Shown in pieces: positions 6,648 through 39,364 of a stretch of 64,000 bases of DNA. A program made the position numbers and the translations under genes. The stretch comes from Rathayibacter sp. Leaf185 (GTDB lineage Bacteria; Actinomycetota; Actinomycetes; Actinomycetales; Microbacteriaceae). The DNA is taken from assembly GCF_001423885.1 (NCBI RefSeq), contig NZ_LMPP01000009.1, positions 22 to 64,021 on the forward strand, read 5' to 3'. The notes under the pieces were generated by a model that did not search any database, was not told the DNA's origin, and saw nothing but the letters and a program-made list of their open reading frames with translations. Each line of letters begins with the position of its first letter. The stretch's first letter is position 1.

Positions 6648-7766
6648 TCACCGGGACGGATGCGCCTCGATCACCGACGCCTGCGAGTGCCGGACCGAGA
6701 TGGTGGAACTCCCGGGCCGGGCGGAGTAGGCGATCAGGCCCTTCGGGTCGGCGACGCTCGTCGCCGCGAAGTAGGTGACGTCGAGCTCGTACTCGTCAGC
6801 GAGCCGATACGCCAGCTCGAAGGTCTGCCGATCGTCGGAGTCGGAATCGGACTGCCAGCCGAGCTCGCCCATCGCGCAGTGCACACCCTGATCGGAGCAC
6901 CACTCACCGAAGGTCGTCATCGAATCGAGCAGCTTCTTCCGCGTGCCGTCGTGGAGGTAGAAGTGCTGGGAGTAGACGATCGCGTTCAGCGGATCGGTGA
7001 CGGGGGGACCGTTCGCGGCGTCGGCCGCGAAGCTCGAACCGAGGATCGAGTCGATCCAGATCGCATGGGTGTCGCCGCGCTCGCGGAGGTCGTCGACGAC
7101 CGTCTGCATGTACTGGAAATAGGCCGGCGCTCCGGTCTTGCTGCCGCGAGGCTCATTGAAGAGGTTGTAGGCGGCCACCCGCGGGTCGTCCGCGAACCGG
7201 TCGGAGATCGCACGCCAGACCTTGCGCACGTCGTCTGTCGTCAGGTCGCCGCCGCAGTAGATCGTGCCCTCCGGCGCGGCGCCGGTCCCCCACGGATAGG
7301 CGCAGCTGTTGTGCAGATCGAGGACCACGCGGATCCCCGCCGCCCCGGCGCGCTCGACCTGCTCGGCGATCAGGTCGAGGTACGCGGAGTCGACGGGTGC
7401 GTCGAGAGCCTCGCGGACGTCTTCGCCGGGCTTCCACGGCTGCAGCCGCTGCCACGGCACCGCGAGGCGGACGATGCTGACACCCCGGCTCGCGAGGTAG
7501 TCGTACGACGCCTGATTGTCGGGCTTCACCCGCGAGGTCGAGATCGCGCGCTGCTGCTGGAGCGTGTAGATGTTGACACCGCGGAGGTAGGACCGGCCGT
7601 CGAGATACGTCTCGAGGCCGTCGGAGCGCGCGCCGGTGGGGGTGGAAGAGGAGGTCGGCGCGGGAGTCGGTTGCGGCGTGCAGCCCGCGAGGACGGCGAC
7701 GACTGCGCAGAGGGACACCGCGATCGATCCCCGCCTGCGCGATCGAGTCCGCCTGCTCCTGGTCAC
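6648..7766 (-). CDS. Glycoside hydrolase family 5-like lipoprotein
   Basis: 372 aa. The GTG start has AGGAG 6 bp upstream. A basic N-terminus and hydrophobic segment end in the lipobox VLAGC (Cys29), followed by a P/T/S linker, so it should be a membrane-anchored exported enzyme. The TIM-barrel pattern fits clan GH-A family 5: RGVNIYTL at the first strand, VVLDLHNS, YNLFNEPRG with the acid/base Glu205, and CAMGELGWQ with the nucleophile Glu301. GH5 enzymes cleave beta-glucans, mannans and related glycans; the substrate cannot be read from the sequence. It is convergent with the secreted beta-helix protein and next to polysaccharide genes, so a role in trimming cell-surface or plant polysaccharide is plausible. 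Confidence 0.85.
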   Translation of the reverse strand: MTRSRRTRSRRRGSIAVSLCAVVAVLAGCTPQPTPAPTSSSTPTGARSDGLETYLDGRSYLRGVNIYTLQQQRAISTSRVKPDNQASYDYLASRGVSIVRLAVPWQRLQPWKPGEDVREALDAPVDSAYLDLIAEQVERAGAAGIRVVLDLHNSCAYPWGTGAAPEGTIYCGGDLTTDDVRKVWRAISDRFADDPRVAAYNLFNEPRGSKTGAPAYFQYMQTVVDDLRERGDTHAIWIDSILGSSFAADAANGPPVTDPLNAIVYSQHFYLHDGTRKKLLDSMTTFGEWCSDQGVHCAMGELGWQSDSDSDDRQTFELAYRLADEYELDVTYFAATSVADPKGLIAYSARPGSSTISVRHSQASVIEAHPSR

Positions 7767-9380: not shown

Positions 9381-10596
9381 TCAGCTGACCGGCGCGGAAC
9401 ATCAGCGGAGTGAGCAGCGCGAGCAGTGCCGGGTTCACATCGATCGCGCTGAAGCCCGACAAGCTCACGAGGAAGGCGACGACCGCGGCCGCAACGCCGG
9501 CGTCGCCCCTCCGGGCGACGCGGAGCACCACGACCGCGAGTGCGCCCAGCGCCAGCGCTGCCAGCGGAATCCCGAGCGACAGCGTCAGCTGGAACACCGA
9601 GTTCTCGAGCGGCCCATCGAACACCGATGAGAATTCGGTCGCAGAGTTGCCGGGACCGGTCCCGAGAAGCCAGTCGTCCTCGATCAGGTCCAGAGCGACC
9701 TTGGTCGACTGCTCCCGGTAGTCCGAGGACTTGATTCCGCCCGAGGAGTCGTTCCTCTGGTCGAGCAACGGCGAATTGGTGACCACGCCGAGGAAACCGA
9801 CCGCCGAGACGAGCAGGAAGAACGCCGTGACGCGGCGGGTCCGCCTGCTCGGCGAGGAGCTGAAGAGCAGAACGAAGCAGCCGAGCGCGAGACCGATCGC
9901 GAGAGCGAGGACTCCGGTGCGCGAGACGGCGAGGATCACCGCGGCGCCCGAACCCAGTAGTGCGGTGATCCGGAGCCATCGCCGACGATCGGAGCCGAAG
10001 AGGGCGATCATCGCGCACATGGTCGCGACGGTCGACGTCACCAGCGGGTGGCCCAGACTCGTGCGGGTGCGGAACACCGACCAGACCTTCTCGGTCACGT
10101 CGTACGAGAACAGGGACGACCACGGGTTGAACCCGGCGACGAAGTCGAGCACGGCGAGACCGCCGATGAAGACGCCGATCCAGAGGAAGGCCGTCTGTGA
10201 CGACGGCCAGATCTCATCGCGACGGATCCGACCGTAGTGGTACGGCAGGACGACGCAGATCAGCGCGACCAGAGCCCAGGTGACAGAGATACCCGGATCG
10301 ACGCCGAGGAGGGTGGACACTCCGACGACGCCGAGGACAGGCAGCCAGAGGACCGCGCCGATCTTGACGGGTGCCGCGTCGGAGTCGCGGGCGCCGAACA
10401 TCATCCGCAGCACCCAGACTGCGAGGATGATGACAGCCGGAGTGAAGTAGCGGCCGGTGATCCGCGGGATGTCCATGTAGCCGACCGGCAGGACCACCAG
10501 CACCGCGAGCGCCAGGGCGGGCATCAGATGGCGGGGCATGAAGAAGACGACGAGCCCTCCGATCAGCCCGACCGCGGCCAGCGCGACCAGGGTCAT
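9283..10596 (-). CDS. O-antigen ligase/polymerase-like membrane protein (Wzy-like)
   Basis: 437 aa, about 10-12 predicted membrane helices. A large extracellular loop in the C-terminal half contains the typical [14 protein letters not shown] block of the Wzy_C/O-antigen ligase family and the [11 protein letters not shown] helix before it. It would polymerise lipid-linked repeat units on the outer face of the membrane. It is the last gene of the minus-strand operon; its ATG overlaps the upstream stop by 4 bp (ATGA). The C-terminal tail (S/P/T/A-rich, about the last 30 residues) is encoded in DNA shared with the convergent acetyltransferase. Confidence 0.82.
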
Positions 10597-33230: not shown

Positions 33231-33305
33231 GCCCCCATAGCTCAGGGGATAGAGCACTGCCCTCCGGAGGCAGGGGCGTAGGTTCGAATCCTACTGGGGG
33301 CACCA
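33231..33305 (+). tRNA. tRNA-Arg (anticodon CCG)
   Basis: Complete cloverleaf. Acceptor GCCCCCA pairs with TGGGGGC; D-arm AGCTCAGGGGATAGAGC; anticodon stem CTGCC/GGCAG with loop CTCCGGA (anticodon CCG at 33264-33266); T-arm GTAGG-TTCGAAT-CCTAC; CCA is encoded (33303-33305). It reads CGG codons. An integrase remnant and a degenerate copy of the tRNA 3' part lie downstream, so its 3' end was probably used as an attachment site. Confidence 0.97.
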
Positions 33306-33306
33306 C
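33261..33306 (+). repeat. attL-like copy: tRNA-Arg 3' half
   Basis: Anticodon loop to CCA end of the tRNA. By eye it matches 34730-34775 at 37 of 46 ungapped positions, including the identical end CTGGGGGCACCAC. Confidence 0.6.
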
Positions 33307-33322
33307 TTCTCAAGGCCCTGAA

Positions 33323-33547
33323 TCACGAGGATCGTGTGTCGTTCCGAGCCTGCCCACGATCCGCCCACTGCGCCCTGATCGGGGCGGAAGAGACGGCGTC
33401 GCACAGCTGAGGGCAGATGTCGAGAGTGACCGCCGCGCAGACACCAACGAGCATCCGCTGCACGGCCTTCACATCGGCTCCGGCGCTGGTCGCGAGCGAC
33501 GCCGAAGCGTGCCGCAGCTCGTGTGGTGCGAGCCCCGGCAGTCCCAT
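33323..33547 (-). pseudogene. Tyrosine recombinase/integrase, C-terminal fragment
   Basis: About 75 codons. The segment GLAPHELRHASASLATSAG followed by ADVKAVQRML is the C-terminal catalytic region of phage-type tyrosine integrases (HxLRH box, then the QRMLGH box). The downstream block reads AAVTLDICPQLCD where functional enzymes have TLDxYxxLF, so the nucleophilic Tyr is lost and the GH of the RMLGH box is replaced. The open frame continues a short way upstream (TDDAATGESM) but no N-terminal or core domains follow. The fragment sits 18 bp from the tRNA-Arg gene and reads towards it, the usual place for the integrase of a tRNA-targeting element. Confidence 0.8.
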
Positions 33548-33620
33548 CGACTCGCCTGTGGCAGCGTCATCCGTGCGCGGAAGGCCCGCGCACCGGCCGC
33601 CGACGCACCGCTACGACCAC

Positions 33621-33737
33621 TCAGTCGTCGTCGGTCGCGCAGTTCACAGAGCAGTAGGGGTCGGCGAAGCGGCGAGGGCGCCGCCGGCACGAGTCGCAGC
33701 GTCCGGTGTGCAGAAGGGTTCGCAGAATAGCGGTCAT
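33621..33737 (-). CDS. 38-aa putative zinc-binding mini-protein (copy A)
   Basis: ATG 33737 to TGA 33621. Sequence pattern: basic N-terminus, then CDSC, PRR, ADPYCSVNC and a terminal DDD. The four Cys have the spacing C-X2-C-X11-C-X3-C, which fits a zinc ribbon or treble-clef fold. Its last 26 residues are identical at 17 positions to the 51-aa protein encoded at 38237-38392, including PRR, DPYCS and the DDD end. That similarity is the main evidence that this short frame is real. The YCS-x2-C block resembles YacG/DUF2256-type zinc motifs. Function unknown. It lies inside the eroded tRNA-Arg element. Confidence 0.55.
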   Translation of the reverse strand: MTAILRTLLHTGRCDSCRRRPRRFADPYCSVNCATDDD

Positions 33738-34110
33738 CGATGACTCCAGGGTGTAGGCGCCGCGACCACCGTGAGGCTGCGAGCATTCGGGTGCTCGCTG
33801 GTCGCTCGGGAGGCGCCAAAGTCATTCGTACCCGCCCCGCGATCGGATGGGAAGCCCTCCCGTCGAGGACCTGCGCGGGCTCGTGTCGGTTGTCTCGAGC
33901 GCGATCGCGGCACGACCCGCTTCGACCCCGACCATCCGCACCGCCCCCGCGGCCACCCCGACGCCGCCGTCGACGCGTACCGTCGGCATGGCGACGACGC
34001 GCCCTGGCTGCTCTCATGGAAAGGCGGAGTGGTCGTGATCGACTCCGAGACGGGCCGCTGCATGTGTGACGGCGAAGTCCGCGCGGACGCCGACCGGCGT
34101 GAGCGTGGCG

Positions 34111-34350
34111 GTCGCCGCTGACCAGCTCCTTCGTCACGCGCCGCAACTCTTCGGAGCGCCACAAGCCGAGTGCGTTCATGGTCGCGACGACCTCGGACAC
34201 CATGAACTCGTTCATGCGATTCACCTTCCGGTGCATCGTGCGCTCCGGGATCCCGATGCGTCTGGTCATCGCGGCATTCGTCGGATGGCCACGGTCGACC
34301 GCAACGGTGATGAGGGTGATCACCCGCTCGAAAGTCGGCCGATCGTCCAT
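34111..34350 (-). pseudogene. HTH transcriptional regulator fragment (phage-repressor-like)
   Basis: From ATG 34350 (MDDRPTFERVITLITVAV) about 80 codons look coding. MTRRIGIPERTMHRKVNRM followed by NEFMVSEVVATMNALGL fits an XRE-type helix-turn-helix, with the recognition helix around PERTMHRKVN. After about ELVSGDR the frame turns into Arg/His-rich, non-coding-looking sequence, so the 3' end is probably frameshifted or lost. A prophage or ICE immunity-type repressor is the likely origin. The end at 34111 is approximate. Confidence 0.5.
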
Positions 34351-34729
34351 CGTGAAGGCTGTGTCCGCCTGCGCATGACCGGCGCCGTTGCGTCTGCATC
34401 CACCGGCGAGTGTTCGACGAGGTGTTCGATCCATCTCGTGAGCAGCGAGAAGGTCGTCCACACTGTGGACCCCTCCGGGGCTCGTGTCAGGCGTGGAGTC
34501 CCTACCCCCTCCCCCCGGAGAAGGCTGCACAAGAGTGCGTAGCCCGGGCCAGGGGCCGTGATTCATCCGGACCCTTGAAGGGGGGACTCGCGTCACACCC
34601 CTCCTTGCTCGCATTCTGCCGACACTCCCCCGCAACCCTTGTGCGTGAGCAGGGTCCGAACGAGCGAGCAAGGCGAGAAAGACGCGGCTCAGGCGTCGAA
34701 ACTCCGCATCCTCGCGGGAAGCGATCGCC

Positions 34730-34775
34730 CCTCCAGGGGCGGGGGCGCAGGTTCTCATTCCGCTGGGGGCACCAC
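34730..34775 (+). repeat. Degenerate second copy of tRNA-Arg 3' half (attR-like)
   Basis: 37 of 46 positions match 33261-33306 without gaps, including CTGGGGGCACCAC. Substitutions break the anticodon and T stems (T-loop TTCTCAT instead of TTCGAAT), so it is not a functional tRNA. Fainter resemblance to the 5' half of the tRNA extends upstream to about 34702. It may mark the far end of an integrated element or be a decayed tRNA duplication. Confidence 0.6.
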
Positions 34776-34855
34776 GCGGAGGCGCTCTCCGTCCGATCGC
34801 CGAGCCCTGTCGGCTCTCACGATGTCGCAGATCGCGTGCCAGCGCCTCGCCCAAC

Positions 34856-35974
34856 ATGCGCCCATCGTCGGCGCTCGCCCACAGCCTGAATAGCCTGACG
34901 GGCGTGCCTCAGCGACTTGACAGCCTCACGAGCTTGCGATGGTTCGCCGCTCTTCTCGTTTTCTGCTTCCACGCCACAGCTCTCCTCGATGGCCCGTCCG
35001 CAACCGTCTTCGGTGTCCTGTCCTCATCGGGGCGAAGTGGTGTGACCTTCTTCTTCATCCTGTCGGGTTTCGTTCTGGCGTGGTCCCACCGGAGGTCAGT
35101 GACACCTGTGACGTTCTACAGGCGTCGGCTGTCGAGGATCTATCCGGTGTATGCGGTCACTCTGCTCGCAGGTGTCGCCGCGAAGATCGCAACCGACCCG
35201 GCTGCTCTCTCCGACGGCATCCTCACTCCGGTGCTTCTCCAAGCCTGGCTCCCGGATCACGACGTCATCCTCGCAATCAATGTCCCAGCCTGGTCCCTGT
35301 CGTGCGAGGCCTTTTTCTACCTTGTGTTCCCGCTCGTGATCCGTCCGGTTGTCGCTATGCGGTCGCGAGCACGATGGTTGATGGCAGCGGCGTCCGCCGC
35401 GGGCGTCCTTCTCGTTGGCGTGGTCGGATCCTTCGTCTCGGGCACGGGACGCATCGGGGACTCCGAGGTCGCCGACTGGCTGGTCGGGTACCTGCCACTG
35501 GCAAGGCTCCCGGAGTTCTTCCTCGGGGTCGTCTTCGCGGTCGCCCTACGGAAGGGCGAGATGCCCCGCATTCCACTCGCACTCGCTGGGGGGCTCTCGG
35601 TCGGAGCACTGGCGTTCGCCTCCGCGACACACTCCCTCATCGGCGTTGCTGCCGCGCCCGTCCTCGCCTTCGGTCTCCTCATCGTCTCAGCAGCGCAGTC
35701 CGATCTGGATGGCCGCGGCCGGTGGCTCCGACACCCCGTCCTCGTTCGTCTCGGCGCATGGTCCTACTCGTTCTACCTCGTGCATGTCCTTGCGATGGGC
35801 GCCGTCTCGACGGGGTCGGGCATGCTCGGCTTGGCGACTCGCGGCCCGACAGTGATCCTGCTCGTCTTCGCCGTCAGTCTCGCTTCCGCGGGTCTACTCC
35901 ACGCCTTCGTCGAACGCCCCGCAGATCGGCTGCTGAACGGGCGCAGCGCACGATCAGTCGTCGCCGACGCCTGA
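34856..35974 (+). CDS. Acyltransferase 3 family protein (OafA/YrhL-like)
   Basis: 372 aa from ATG 34856. A GTG at 34904 (VPQRLDSLTSLRWF) is an equally good or better start, because the family normally begins just before RLDSLTSLRWFAALLVF. About 10 membrane helices. Family motifs: FCFHA with the conserved catalytic His, GVTFFFILSGFVLAW, FYRRRLSRIYPVY, and LSCEAFFYLVFPL. It transfers acyl (usually acetyl) groups to extracytoplasmic sugars. It begins just beyond the degenerate tRNA copy and is convergent with an SGNH hydrolase, a domain often partnered with this family. Confidence 0.9.
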   Translation: MRPSSALAHSLNSLTGVPQRLDSLTSLRWFAALLVFCFHATALLDGPSATVFGVLSSSGRSGVTFFFILSGFVLAWSHRRSVTPVTFYRRRLSRIYPVYAVTLLAGVAAKIATDPAALSDGILTPVLLQAWLPDHDVILAINVPAWSLSCEAFFYLVFPLVIRPVVAMRSRARWLMAAASAAGVLLVGVVGSFVSGTGRIGDSEVADWLVGYLPLARLPEFFLGVVFAVALRKGEMPRIPLALAGGLSVGALAFASATHSLIGVAAAPVLAFGLLIVSAAQSDLDGRGRWLRHPVLVRLGAWSYSFYLVHVLAMGAVSTGSGMLGLATRGPTVILLVFAVSLASAGLLHAFVERPADRLLNGRSARSVVADA

Positions 35975-36031
35975 TCGACGAAGGGCTGAGCGTCATCGTC
36001 TGGGAGCCGGCATCGAAGAGCTCGTGCTGAA

Positions 36032-36628
36032 TCACGCCGTGACGATGATCTCCCGGAGGTCCTCGGCCGGCTTCTGCGCCATGTGGTCGTAGCCGGCCGT
36101 GTTCGGGTGGCCGAGCTCGATGTTCACCCACTCGGGCTGCGACGACGTCGGGAACCACGTCTCCGCCAGCGGGCTGATGAACTCGATCCGCTGCTCGGCC
36201 GCATACTCGCGGAGCACCTGGTCGACGTAGCGCTTGTTTGCATTCGAGTTGGTCGATATCGAGACCGGGCCGAGCATCAGGAGCCGCGCTGACGGGAAGT
36301 GCGCGCGCAGGGTCTGCACTGTGCTGCCCACCGCCTCCGCCGGTCCCGCGTTCTCGACGTTCTGGTCGTTCGATCCACCCGGGAGGATCACCAGCTGGAA
36401 CTCGTCTCCATGGCTCAGCGCGTCGATGCGCTGCTGGAAGGTGCCCAGACCGTCGTTCCCGGCCTTGAGGTAGCCCGTCGAGCCGACTCCCTCGACGGCG
36501 ACATCCCAGCCCTCGAGACAGCGCGGGAGCACCGCCGCGAAACTGTCGGAGCCGCGGTTCGCGACCCGCACGGTGATCCTCACCGCCGTCCTCTGCCACT
36601 CGTGCGTCAGTCCTCGAGCACGTGCCAT
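36032..36628 (-). CDS. SGNH/GDSL-like hydrolase domain protein
   Basis: 198 aa. The start at 36628 (MARARGLTHEW) has GGGGGA 6 bp upstream; the longer open frame has no homology. Blocks: RGSDSFAAVL (block I, with GSDS instead of the usual GDS), VGSTGYL (block II Gly), LPGGSNDQ (block III Asn) and IELGHPNTAGYDHMA (block V, His present but the usual D-x-x-H Asp replaced by Glu-Leu-Gly). It may therefore be a divergent or weakened enzyme, or one whose N-terminus is altered. No signal peptide is visible. It lies between two membrane acyltransferase genes, so polymer acetylation or deacetylation is the likely theme. Confidence 0.7.
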   Translation of the reverse strand: MARARGLTHEWQRTAVRITVRVANRGSDSFAAVLPRCLEGWDVAVEGVGSTGYLKAGNDGLGTFQQRIDALSHGDEFQLVILPGGSNDQNVENAGPAEAVGSTVQTLRAHFPSARLLMLGPVSISTNSNANKRYVDQVLREYAAEQRIEFISPLAETWFPTSSQPEWVNIELGHPNTAGYDHMAQKPAEDLREIIVTA

Positions 36629-36704
36629 CGGATGTCCCCCGTGATCGGATACCTGATCGCTGCGGGACCGATCGCGGGCCACCGGCTCTTCCTGCGGGCG
36701 GTCC

Positions 36705-37889
36705 TCAGACCGCAGAGCGCGTGGCCGCCCTGTCCGAGACCGCGCGGCCGACGCGTCGTGCGAGCCGGTGCGACGGGTACTCGACGGCGCGATAGAAAGC
36801 CCAACCCGCGGCGAGGGACAGCGGCAGAGCGATGACGATCGCGAGGAAGGACAGGTCGGGTCCCAGCGCGACCCCGACCGCCACCACGATCGGCTCATGG
36901 ATCAGATAGAGACTGAACGAGATCATCCCGAGCCAGCGCAGAGCACGGCGGCGGAGCAGGTCGACGGCCGGCTGCCACGAGAGCGCGAGGACGAAGAGGA
37001 TGACGATGCCGGCGATCGCGGTGCCCTGTGCGGCCGAAGACAGCACTGACGGAAGGGCAAGGGGCAGCAACGTCCACTTCAGGGTCAGCAGCAGGACCGC
37101 CGCCATCAGGAGCGCCCACCCGACCGCATCGCCCCGGCGCCCGCTGAGGAGGCGACGCGCCGCGGCATCGATGCTCGGCCAGTTGCTCGCCAGGACGCTG
37201 CCGAAGAAGAACATCGGCATGAAGAAGAGGGCCTTGACGTCGAGCAGCGCGCCGAGGACGATCAGCGCGAGCAGGCCGCCCGCCGTCGCCACCCACCACC
37301 GCGACGGCCGCCCGAACAGGAGCAGCGCGAGCGGGAGGATCAGGGAGTAGAGGACCTCCCACTGCAGCGACCACAGAGGAGTGTTCAGCGTCGAACCGCC
37401 GAGGACCAGCGCTGCGTCGGTGAGGGTCTCGCCGAGTGGCTGCGAATTGTGCCGGTCCATCCACGCGCCGGCCGAAGCATCGGGGCGGGTGACCAGGAGG
37501 GCGAGGACGGCGGCGAACGCGAGCGCCGCCCACGCCGGGAGGTAGATGCGGATCAGTCGACGCGGGTAGTAGGAGGCCATGTCGAGTCGACGTGTGCGCA
37601 GGTAGGGAAGCGTCAGCACGAAGCCGCTCAGGATGAAGAACAGCCAGACGGCCTCTGTACCGAGCCAGACGAGGTGCAGCGGAGAGAACTTCAGCACGTC
37701 CGCGAGGAGAGACCCCTCCCCCGGCCCCCCGGAGGCGAGCTCGGGCACGACGAGCAGGCAGTGGTGGATGACGACGACCAGCGCAGCGACCCCCCGGAGG
37801 CCGTCGAGAGACTCGAAGCGTCCCGTTCCCGCTGTGCTGACCTCCATCGACGGAGTGCGGTCGACCTGCTCCTTGCGTTCCGTCGTCAT
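36705..37889 (-). CDS. Acyltransferase 3 family protein
   Basis: 394 aa, about 10 membrane helices. Motifs: RFESLDGLRGVAALVVVIHH (with the catalytic His pair region), WLFFILSGFVLTLPY, YYPRRLIRIYLPAW, TPLWSLQWEVLYSLILPL and FSLYLIHEPIVV. Transfers acyl groups to surface glycans or lipids. 76 bp upstream of the SGNH hydrolase in the same direction, so probably co-transcribed. It is related to the acyltransferase at 34856 but not a recent duplicate. Confidence 0.9.
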   Translation of the reverse strand: MTTERKEQVDRTPSMEVSTAGTGRFESLDGLRGVAALVVVIHHCLLVVPELASGGPGEGSLLADVLKFSPLHLVWLGTEAVWLFFILSGFVLTLPYLRTRRLDMASYYPRRLIRIYLPAWAALAFAAVLALLVTRPDASAGAWMDRHNSQPLGETLTDAALVLGGSTLNTPLWSLQWEVLYSLILPLALLLFGRPSRWWVATAGGLLALIVLGALLDVKALFFMPMFFFGSVLASNWPSIDAAARRLLSGRRGDAVGWALLMAAVLLLTLKWTLLPLALPSVLSSAAQGTAIAGIVILFVLALSWQPAVDLLRRRALRWLGMISFSLYLIHEPIVVAVGVALGPDLSFLAIVIALPLSLAAGWAFYRAVEYPSHRLARRVGRAVSDRAATRSAV

Positions 37890-38236
37890 GCCGTCCCCAA
37901 CCGTCGAATAGCGCCGAGGCTAGTCGAGGAGCGGAACAGCGTTCTGCCGGCTGCGGAGACGACGAAGCCGCTTCGCAGAAGGCGATGTGCGAAAGCGCCG
38001 ACCGCCTCCTTCCGCGCGAATACGGGGGCTCGGCACGCCGTCGAGCGCATGGAGTACCCGCTGCACAGTCCGCGCGAGCCACTCGCACGGACGTCGCCCC
38101 TCGGACGTCGTCGATTTCTCCTTCCCCGCGTCACCCGGAGTGGCGCCAGTGAAGCGCCGACCGGTACTGCCGAGAACCGGGCCCGCCGATCGTCCGCCGA
38201 GCCTGCGGCGTCGGTACGGGAGGTCCGGCCGATGCG
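37890..38236. other. Intergenic region, no gene seen
   Basis: 347 bp between the minus-strand acyltransferase and zinc mini-protein B. Short frames on both strands lack start signals and family resemblance. Small inverted repeats (for example GGCGC-CAGTGAA-GCGCC at about 38142-38158) are visible but weak. It should hold the promoter of the acyltransferase. Confidence 0.35.
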
Positions 38237-38392
38237 TCAGTCGTCGTCTTCGGCGCAGCGCTTCGAGCAGTACGGATCGAACAGCCGCCGCGGAACGCGT
38301 CCGCACGACAGACAGAGCTGTCGCTTCCTCCGCCAGCGGGCGGGGACGAGCGGTCGGAGGCGCGGGAGGAATCGTGCAGGGGTCACGGACAT
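38237..38392 (-). CDS. 51-aa putative zinc-binding mini-protein (copy B)
   Basis: ATG 38392 to TGA 38237; too short for most ORF cut-offs. A very basic N-terminal half (R/K-rich, MSVTPARFLPRLRPLVPARW) is followed by LCLSCGRVPRRLFDPYCSKR and ending CAEDDD. The four Cys (27, 30, 42, 46) have the same C-X2-C-X11-C-X3-C spacing as the 38-aa protein at 33621-33737. 17 of the last 26 residues are identical. CxxCGR and YCSxRC resemble YacG- and DUF2256-type zinc motifs, so nucleic-acid or protein binding is possible. A weak AGGTG precedes the start. Function unknown. Confidence 0.65.
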   Translation of the reverse strand: MSVTPARFLPRLRPLVPARWRRKRQLCLSCGRVPRRLFDPYCSKRCAEDDD

Positions 38393-38641
38393 CACCTATT
38401 CGTCGACGTCGCGAATCTCCATGGGGACGGAGCGCGCTTCGGGTGCGCGAGGTTCGCCGGGAGACGTCGTGTCCTATTCGTAGTCGCATGCCCCCCGGAT
38501 GGGAACGTCGTGGCGGGAAAAGACAGTAGATCTGCTCAGCTCGAGGACACATCGTCTCGCTGATCGCCTCCCACCCTCGATCGAGGGCCACCGGTGGCCG
38601 AGTCGGCTTCCTCGCTGCCGACCCCGAACATCCCTCGAAAC

Positions 38642-38670
38642 GCTCTCAGGAAACGCCCGTTCCTGAGAGC
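38642..38670. promoter_or_regulatory. Inverted repeat upstream of the response-regulator gene
   Basis: Perfect 10-bp arms GCTCTCAGGA (38642-38651) and TCCTGAGAGC (38661-38670) separated by 9 bp, ending 19 bp before the GTG of the response regulator. The core reads CTCAGGAA-N7-TTCCTGAG. The position near the promoter or 5' leader suggests an operator, possibly for autoregulation. A leader hairpin is the alternative. Confidence 0.5.
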
Positions 38671-38689
38671 CGCGCCGTAGGGTGAGCGC

Positions 38690-39364
38690 GTGAACATCCT
38701 TGTCGTCGAAGACGATCCAGCCATGGGCGAGGCCCTCGTGGGCGGCCTCGAGGACGCCGGCTACCAGGCCGTGCTGACGACCAACGGCGTCGACGCCCTC
38801 GTCGCCTTCAACAACGCCGAGTTCTCCGCCGCGATCGTCGACGTGATGCTGCCGGCGATGTCCGGGTTCGAGATCTGCCGGCGCATCCGGGAGCTCGGCC
38901 GGTCCACTCCGATCATGCTGCTGACGGCGCGCGACGCCATCGAGGACCGCGTCTTCGGGCTCGACGCCGGTGCCGACGACTACCTCACCAAGCCGTTCGC
39001 CTTCACCGAGCTCAACGCCCGCCTCCGCGCGCTGCTGCGCCGGAGCCCGTCGCTGATGTCGACCTCGATCGAGGTCGGCCGCATCACCGTCGACGGCTCG
39101 AGCATCCGCCGAACGGCCGACGGTACCCGGATCCACGTGAGCCCGAAAGAGCTCGAGCTCCTCAAGCTCCTCATCACTCCGGTCGGCTCGGTCGTCACCC
39201 GGCAGCGGATCCTCTCGGAGATCTGGGGCGGCGGCGAGATCGTCGACAACAACATCGTCGATCAGTACGTCAGCTACCTCCGCAAGAAGCTGCCCACCGA
39301 GGACACCGGCGTGAGCATCGTCACGGTGCGCGGCAAGGGCTACTTCCTGCGTCCCGTCGAGTAG
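38690..39364 (+). CDS. OmpR/PhoB-family response regulator
   Basis: 224 aa, GTG start. Receiver domain residues 1-115: acidic pair VVEDD, phospho-acceptor Asp51 (AAIVDVMLP), T/S in LLTARD and Lys101 in LTKPF. C-terminal winged-helix DNA-binding domain: VSPKELELLKLLI, TRQRILSEIWGG and the recognition-helix region NNIVDQYVSYLRKKL ending VRGKGYFLRP. It pairs with the histidine kinase 4 bp downstream. The inverted repeat upstream may be its operator. Confidence 0.94.
   Translation: MNILVVEDDPAMGEALVGGLEDAGYQAVLTTNGVDALVAFNNAEFSAAIVDVMLPAMSGFEICRRIRELGRSTPIMLLTARDAIEDRVFGLDAGADDYLTKPFAFTELNARLRALLRRSPSLMSTSIEVGRITVDGSSIRRTADGTRIHVSPKELELLKLLITPVGSVVTRQRILSEIWGGGEIVDNNIVDQYVSYLRKKLPTEDTGVSIVTVRGKGYFLRPVE

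Follow-up and report, generated by a model that had tools for sequence, protein, structure and literature searches.

We identified two very short protein-coding genes, each preceded by a conserved RNA structure, in a 64,000-nucleotide (nt) stretch of Rathayibacter sp. Leaf185 (contig NZ_LMPP01000009.1, positions 22 to 64,021; hereafter the window, by which coordinates are counted unless another source is named). Copy A (33621..33737 including the stop codon, minus strand) encodes 38 amino acids and has TGGAG 6 nt before its ATG, and copy B (38237..38386 including the stop codon, minus strand) encodes 49 amino acids from a GTG start. Both mini-proteins have four cysteines with the spacing CX2C-X11-CX3C, and both terminate in DDD. 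Our preferred reading, which we hold with about even confidence, is that A and B work in trans, as small regulators or adaptors, within a variable surface-acylation slot next to a tRNA-Arg gene and are controlled via their leaders.

From the first cysteine to the end, 17 of 25 aligned residues are identical between the two proteins (counted by eye), the Cys regions reading CDSCR...CSVNC in A and CLSCG...CSKRC in B. A search of the organism's own 4.1-Mb genome with B as query returned A as the sole other significant place, and because A is matched at an expectation value (E) of 8.1e-6 vs 0.08 for the next place, chance is rejected as the cause of their likeness. This bears out an earlier note on this DNA, which had described two paralogous minus-strand frames with identical Cys spacing, both present where it placed them, and had found their similarity hard to explain by chance. 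The frame it gave for B (38237-38392) also stands, but most likely not its start. Judged from the sequence, translation most likely starts at the GTG at 38386 (VTP...) rather than the ATG at 38392: AGGTGA precedes this GTG by 5 nt, and VTP is also where the orthologues of two further Rathayibacter genomes (G006 and G010) start. The computed isoelectric points of 11 family proteins range from 8.5 to 11.0.

Both copies are also present in G006 and G010, where A and B lie ~1.3 kb apart around one GDSL-type gene (identified by Pfam in G006 and by DNA homology in G010). The pairwise ratios of non-synonymous to synonymous change (dN/dS) are 0.40, 0.29 and 0.16 for the three orthologue pairs of copy A, 0.28, 0.16 and 0.14 for three pairs of copy B (last 28 codons), and 0.12, 0.13, 0 and 0.08 for four pairs of other family members (28 codons), all of them values from short stretches and without a significance test. 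Third codon positions change most in these comparisons. With orthologues in both G006 and G010 and dN/dS of 0.14-0.40 among the pairs, A and B are protein-coding genes with conserved amino-acid sequence. The earlier note had named an absence of homologues elsewhere, or equally frequent synonymous and non-synonymous changes, as observations that would speak against the pair; dN/dS is below 1 in all six pairs of A and B, and a profile search found family matches in 13 of 15 Rathayibacter genomes (G000 to G014, G000 being that of the window). We also considered A and B as pieces of longer open reading frames (ORFs). This is rejected, as the A orthologues differ upstream of the ATG in frame (by eye) and the conservation upstream of both copies tracks base pairing.

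The family comprises 22 copies: three each in G001, G006 and G010, two each in G000, G003 and G004, and one each in G005, G007, G008, G009, G011, G013 and G014. This count leaves out three places (E 0.004-0.009), one each in G001, G004 and G000, that were taken as chance; the raw counts for these genomes were 4, 3 and 3, respectively. All four cysteines are present in 21 copies, and the G011 copy has a histidine as the fourth. Six copies, namely A and B with their orthologues in G006 and G010, have the DDD end; of the 16 copies that end otherwise, most finish in aromatic residues (for example TFxYYD or TFxLYE). The earlier idea of a new small family therefore holds insofar as the paralogous pair is real and belongs to a small family of zinc type that has no curated name; the family is, however, wider than the DDD type. 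Among the genomes searched, it is seen in Rathayibacter only. Weak places outside the genus, none counted as members, were found in 4 genomes of a family draw of 299 (E 3.2e-4 to 5.7e-4), in 3 genomes of an order draw of 396 (E 6.5e-4 to 8.4e-4), and in 7 of the 64 non-genus genomes within a draw of 79 relatives (E 6e-4 to 8.6e-3); the three draws overlap and include part of the genus. At most 24 and 18 candidates were scored per genome in the larger draws, therefore weak members could escape. Two short Cys-rich ORFs among the outside places (L072 and L074) could be distant kin.

Conserved blocks directly upstream of the ORFs in the orthologue alignment revealed a structured leader before each gene (33756..33817 for copy A and 38405..38468 for copy B, both on the minus strand), with evidence from conservation, folding, models and covariation. 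The earlier reading covered the small genes alone and missed both this leader and its occurrence before an unrelated ORF. Each leader is ~65 nt in length and ends 18 nt before the start codon. The motif consists of a P1 stem of 6 base pairs, a UCCCG(A) bulge on the 5' side (UCCCGA in copy A), a P2 stem, and a hairpin with the loop ACCCGAA, and there is an extra hairpin that is clearest in the B type. Folding z-scores for seven sequences are -3.2, -2.2, -3.5, 0.1 (G009), -1.8, -2.9 and -1.8, and those of two looser sequences of the G001a and G005 types are -3.1 and 0.2.

A model built from three A-type leaders (R1) recovers four held-out leaders, three of the B type and that of G009, at E 1.5e-4 to 3.2e-3 in a search of 11 sources (237,009 bases). 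A second model built from three B-type leaders (R2) recovers the A-type leaders and those of G001b, G009 and G007 in 10 sources (207,072 bases), with E values between 5e-15 and 4.7e-3; no other place there reaches E 0.01. Base-pair covariation in the leader is strong. In alignment A8, 98.3% of 121 cells are paired, 8 of 19 pairs are changed on both sides, and none of 500 shuffles is as high by any measure; in alignment A13, 96.3% of 160 cells are paired, 9 of 21 pairs are changed on both sides (as high in 1 of 500 shuffles), and over all measures 0 to 2 of the 500 shuffles do as well as the alignment, with the caution for both that fitting the alignments to the models favours structure and that their rows are related. 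Controls in which the pairing partner was slid show 17-53% paired, and these controls together with the held-out matches are the better evidence for the leader.

A third model (R3) was built from nine leaders, and these same leaders are its nine strong matches in the genus (58.5-79.2 bits). Eight of the nine precede a zinc-type ORF and one precedes a different ORF. The next best match in the genus scores 35.9 bits and the rest at most 27.1, and nothing outside the genus scores above 31.7 bits in 120 genomes of the family draw under stricter filters (candidates scored being limited to 150 in each genus genome and 43 in each family genome). The 35.9-bit element (L086, G009:C1:96793-96855, minus strand) is a leader-like sequence without the CCCGAA loop near a tRNA-Gly gene and before an 86-amino-acid ORF. 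Among the matches listed, the remaining genus and family hits of the three models are mostly inside long open frames. A hairpin displaying CCCGAA precedes 12 of the 22 zinc-type ORFs (start codons being presumed for some), where ~0.12 would be expected in 22 stretches of 110 nt; the background is 38 such hairpins in 758,418 strand-bases, those 12 included. Outside the leader, a CCCGAACTGGG motif occurs upstream of the copies in L048 (G009), L053 (G006) and L054 (G010).

Riboswitches and protein-binding leaders have covarying stems and conserved unpaired letters and are placed just before the ribosome-binding site. The leader described here is alike in its stems, its unpaired letters and its position. 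However, it matches no Rfam family and precedes two unrelated small ORFs. Rfam identified only tRNA at gathering score between 28000 and 42000, and between 33500 and 38800 the best other match (21.8 bits vs 50) lies off the leaders. Mimicry of a tRNA anticodon arm was also considered and is rejected, as the ACCCGAA loop bears no convincing match by eye to the tRNA-Arg anticodon loop CUCCGGA.

The heptamer TACGAAT, which resembles a -10 element and may be part of a promoter, lies 6 nt before the leader of copy A (33824..33830, minus strand) and 7 nt before that of copy B (38476..38482, minus strand), the latter being kept in G006, G010 and G007. In G007 a leader (L158, G007:C1:2470048-2470111, minus strand) stands where B stands in the window, and it is found at E 1.0e-13 in G007 by R2, which was not built on it. 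G000 and G007 share 83% identity over 292 bp through the -10-like box and the leader, and the homology stops 12 nt before the start codon of B. Behind the G007 leader is a different ORF of 70 amino acids with a hydrophobic stretch and no significant Pfam match (best E 0.26), whose sequence suggests that it is probably a membrane protein. Since the G007 leader precedes this unrelated ORF, the leader is separable from the zinc protein, and it looks like a portable control module.

The slot in the window (33306-38690) extends from an intact tRNA-Arg(CCG) gene (33231..33305, plus strand) to a response-regulator-like gene (38690..39364, plus strand), named from its sequence alone. Sixteen of the 22 family copies are found in this one slot, in 10 of 15 genomes, in a tally that leaves out the slots of G012 and G009. 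The G002 slot is ~280 bp in length and contains no copy, none was found in the slot of G013, and the zinc copy of G007 is ~30 kb away from its slot. The cargo differs between most genomes examined. In the window, Pfam identifies two Acyl_transf_3 O-acyltransferase genes (34856..35974, plus strand, and 36705..37889, minus strand, the latter being the next evident gene downstream of B) and one GDSL/SGNH hydrolase gene (36032..36898, minus strand), a homologue of which is also found between the two copies in G006 and G010. The two copies thus flank a surface-acylation block, much as the earlier note had guessed. Its placement of copy A inside the remains of a tRNA-Arg element needs correction: the tRNA is intact, and the remains are those of a tyrosine-recombinase C-terminus beside A (P0003, ~33449..33541, minus strand; PF00589 E 0.0018, 18.5 bits vs a cut-off of 27.1), a scrap whose sequence supports an old integration event. 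Acyltransferase-3 or GDSL/SGNH genes share the slot with copies in G000, G001, G005 and G006 (by Pfam) and also occur in the slots of G008, G010 and G011 (by sequence or DNA homology only). In G003 (L040), 267-bp direct repeats that are 96% alike (7024-7290 and 10193-10452), each with a small zinc gene, flank a restriction-modification pair. A near-perfect palindrome is found just before the response-regulator-like gene at 38642-38672, with equivalents in L041, L042 and L046, and is perhaps its operator.

We propose that the four cysteines would coordinate a single zinc ion, in a treble-clef or zinc-ribbon fold of minimal size, and that the contact surfaces would be the N-terminus, rich in Arg and Leu, and the C-terminus, either acidic (DDD) or aromatic (TFxYYD, TFxLYE). 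As a small regulator or adaptor, the protein would work in trans, and its most likely targets would be the surface-glycan acylation genes in the same slot. Transcripts would start near P1, and the leader would fold while the 5' end of the mRNA emerges. The two unpaired CCCGA motifs, in the bulge and the apical loop, may then be where a trans factor docks and sets the translation of the ORF. More tentatively, the leader may be a new regulatory RNA class with two CCCGA docking sites and a three- or four-helix fold, in which portable promoter-leader modules drive interchangeable micro-genes (the zinc mini-proteins and a probable membrane mini-protein) in the Rathayibacter tRNA-Arg surface-variation island and one trans factor, possibly a zinc mini-protein, reads all of them; we consider this broader proposal possible and clearly less probable than the regulatory role of A and B.

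Several observations weigh against the regulatory role. Zinc binding is predicted from the Cys spacing only, and the copies are linked to acylation by position. Six copies lie outside the slot, for example between glnA- and glnE-like genes, the G003 slot carries a BsuBI/PstI-type restriction-modification system, and those of G004 and G014 have no evident cargo. The slot copy of G004 (L046, upstream of 9113) is one base shorter than that of G001a upstream of the Cys region, which is therefore not in frame with the corresponding ATG; damage, misassembly or a different start may be responsible. Nine of the 22 copies have neither a full leader nor a CCCGAA hairpin, and at E 0.01 R1 and R2 miss the leaders of G005, G001a, G004, G008 and G011. 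A consensus scan at A and B identified no sigma-70 promoter and no terminator. Finally, the G007 leader before an unrelated ORF argues against simple cis autoregulation by the zinc protein, which is less likely as a result; the zinc copy located elsewhere in G007 could act in trans.

Alternatively, the small ORFs might be cis-acting leader peptides which, together with the structured leader, tune the downstream gene (the acyltransferase after B, or the response-regulator-like gene in G001, G004 and G005), the peptide having no function in trans. Such an arrangement would fit the small ORF standing before an acyltransferase-type gene on the same strand in G000, G008 and G011 (in the latter two by sequence), and the copies in G001, G004 and G005 that lie 83-89 nt before a response-regulator-like gene, also on the same strand. 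However, the amino-acid sequence is conserved, the copies occur in unrelated contexts, and ~200-750 nt to the acyltransferase is long for attenuation. After A on its strand, no evident gene except the recombinase scrap was seen before the tRNA. We therefore consider cis-acting leader peptides unlikely, although they are the best of the alternatives.

Slightly less probable still is that the leader and ORF units are recombination substrates of the tRNA-Arg integration slot, with homology between units allowing exchange of cargo and ORFs and with the folded element acting as a recombination or single-strand site and not as regulatory RNA. The cargo does vary between fixed borders, a recombinase remnant is present, the restriction-modification cassette of G003 lies between the 267-bp repeats containing a small gene, and the ORF behind the leader has changed in G007. 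On the other hand, each of the nine strong elements sits immediately ahead of a start codon, always in the same orientation with respect to its ORF, and the G009 element is outside the slot (its stretch shows no homology to the slot). Among the nine slot proteins scanned there was no intact recombinase, no wider search having been made.

The short, basic proteins with Leu/Arg-rich N-termini, repeated in a variable slot that contains a restriction-modification system in one genome and preceded by a structured leader, might also be small toxins or inhibitors of the toxin-antitoxin or phage-conflict kind that are silenced by the leader. We regard this as improbable, since the copies have no constant partner gene as a neighbour (by eye), PADLOC gives no match for A or B, and neither the two phage searches nor the one plasmid search brought up a relative at an E below 0.4. 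The phage searches, with P0002 and one relative as queries, gave nothing below E 0.4, and the plasmid search, with one relative as query, gave nothing below E 0.7; a phage or plasmid origin is rejected on these results. Two scans of viral contigs were made, of which one contained no relative and the other a 19-residue match (L112).

The family resembles several known zinc mini-proteins to a limited extent. Neither A nor B matches any Pfam family at E 10 or below, and both NCBIfam likenesses (YacG and YdaE) fall short of the cut-off. B scores 21 bits and A 10.1 bits against the YdaE model NF041288 (cut-off 35), and B matches this model at E 2.6e-4 and phrog_1520 at E 1.5e-3. These are tiny proteins as well, but the YdaE score is below cut-off and the copies described here are chromosomal with no relative in the phage searches. 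DUF2116 (PF09889), a probable treble clef, is matched weakly by 6 of the 15 members of alignment A1 (best E 0.014) but not by A or B; A1 members also match YdaE and other short fingers weakly, the best single Pfam match being DZR_2 (E 4.7e-4, one member), with cut-offs not being given for every member in the A1 comparisons. A profile search of solved structures gave a ribosomal protein as the best match (E 0.21). Searches of open-licence papers on Rathayibacter small zinc proteins, riboswitches and small RNAs yielded nothing on these genes as judged by title and the start of the abstract, those on Rathayibacter with tRNA-Arg or acyltransferase yielded none on the subject by title among the papers listed, and one on leader RNA with a small ORF yielded none.

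A divergent YacG-type gyrase inhibitor is very improbable: the NCBIfam model NF002362 of this small Cys4 finger (PF03884 in Pfam) is matched by 13 of 15 A1 members (best E 1.3e-5), but B scores only 23.7 bits vs a cut-off of 79, A does not match this model, and the C-terminal region described as essential for contacts spanning GyrB and GyrA in the passages on YacG in PMC10886550 is absent, as the 17 proteins of alignment A10 end 5-9 residues past the last Cys (11 in the G008 protein, which is outside A10). The likeness to YacG and DUF2256 proposed in the earlier note is thus weak for the former, and DUF2256 is not among the Pfam matches, where DUF2116 weakly appears in its place.

For the small regulators or adaptors that we favour, the closest parallel found is Brz of Halobacterium salinarum, an archaeal zinc mini-protein whose reading frame lies immediately ahead of bop, the gene under its regulation, and was at first considered unlikely to be a gene (PMC2253796). 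The CPxCG-related small zinc finger proteins are defined in the passages on this class as having fewer than 100 amino acids, two Cys/His pairs 7-40 residues apart, and at least one pair of the form CPxCG, CPxCx or CxxCG (PMC2253796). Under the definition as given there, B (CLSCG...CSKRC) fits and A (CDSCR...CSVNC) does not. The mini-proteins of Rathayibacter are similar to Brz and its class in size and paired-Cys spacing. However, Brz is archaeal, the passages on Brz describe no folded leader (PMC2253796), A lacks a CPxCG-like pattern, and regulation by A and B is proposed by us.

Micro-genes this short fall under the usual ORF cut-offs, and a conserved family of them in one genus shows how much can escape notice. 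A covarying leader that also precedes an unrelated micro-gene allows a direct test of what reads the CCCGA loops. Once found, the factor that reads these loops would show how tiny genes in a surface-variation slot are controlled.

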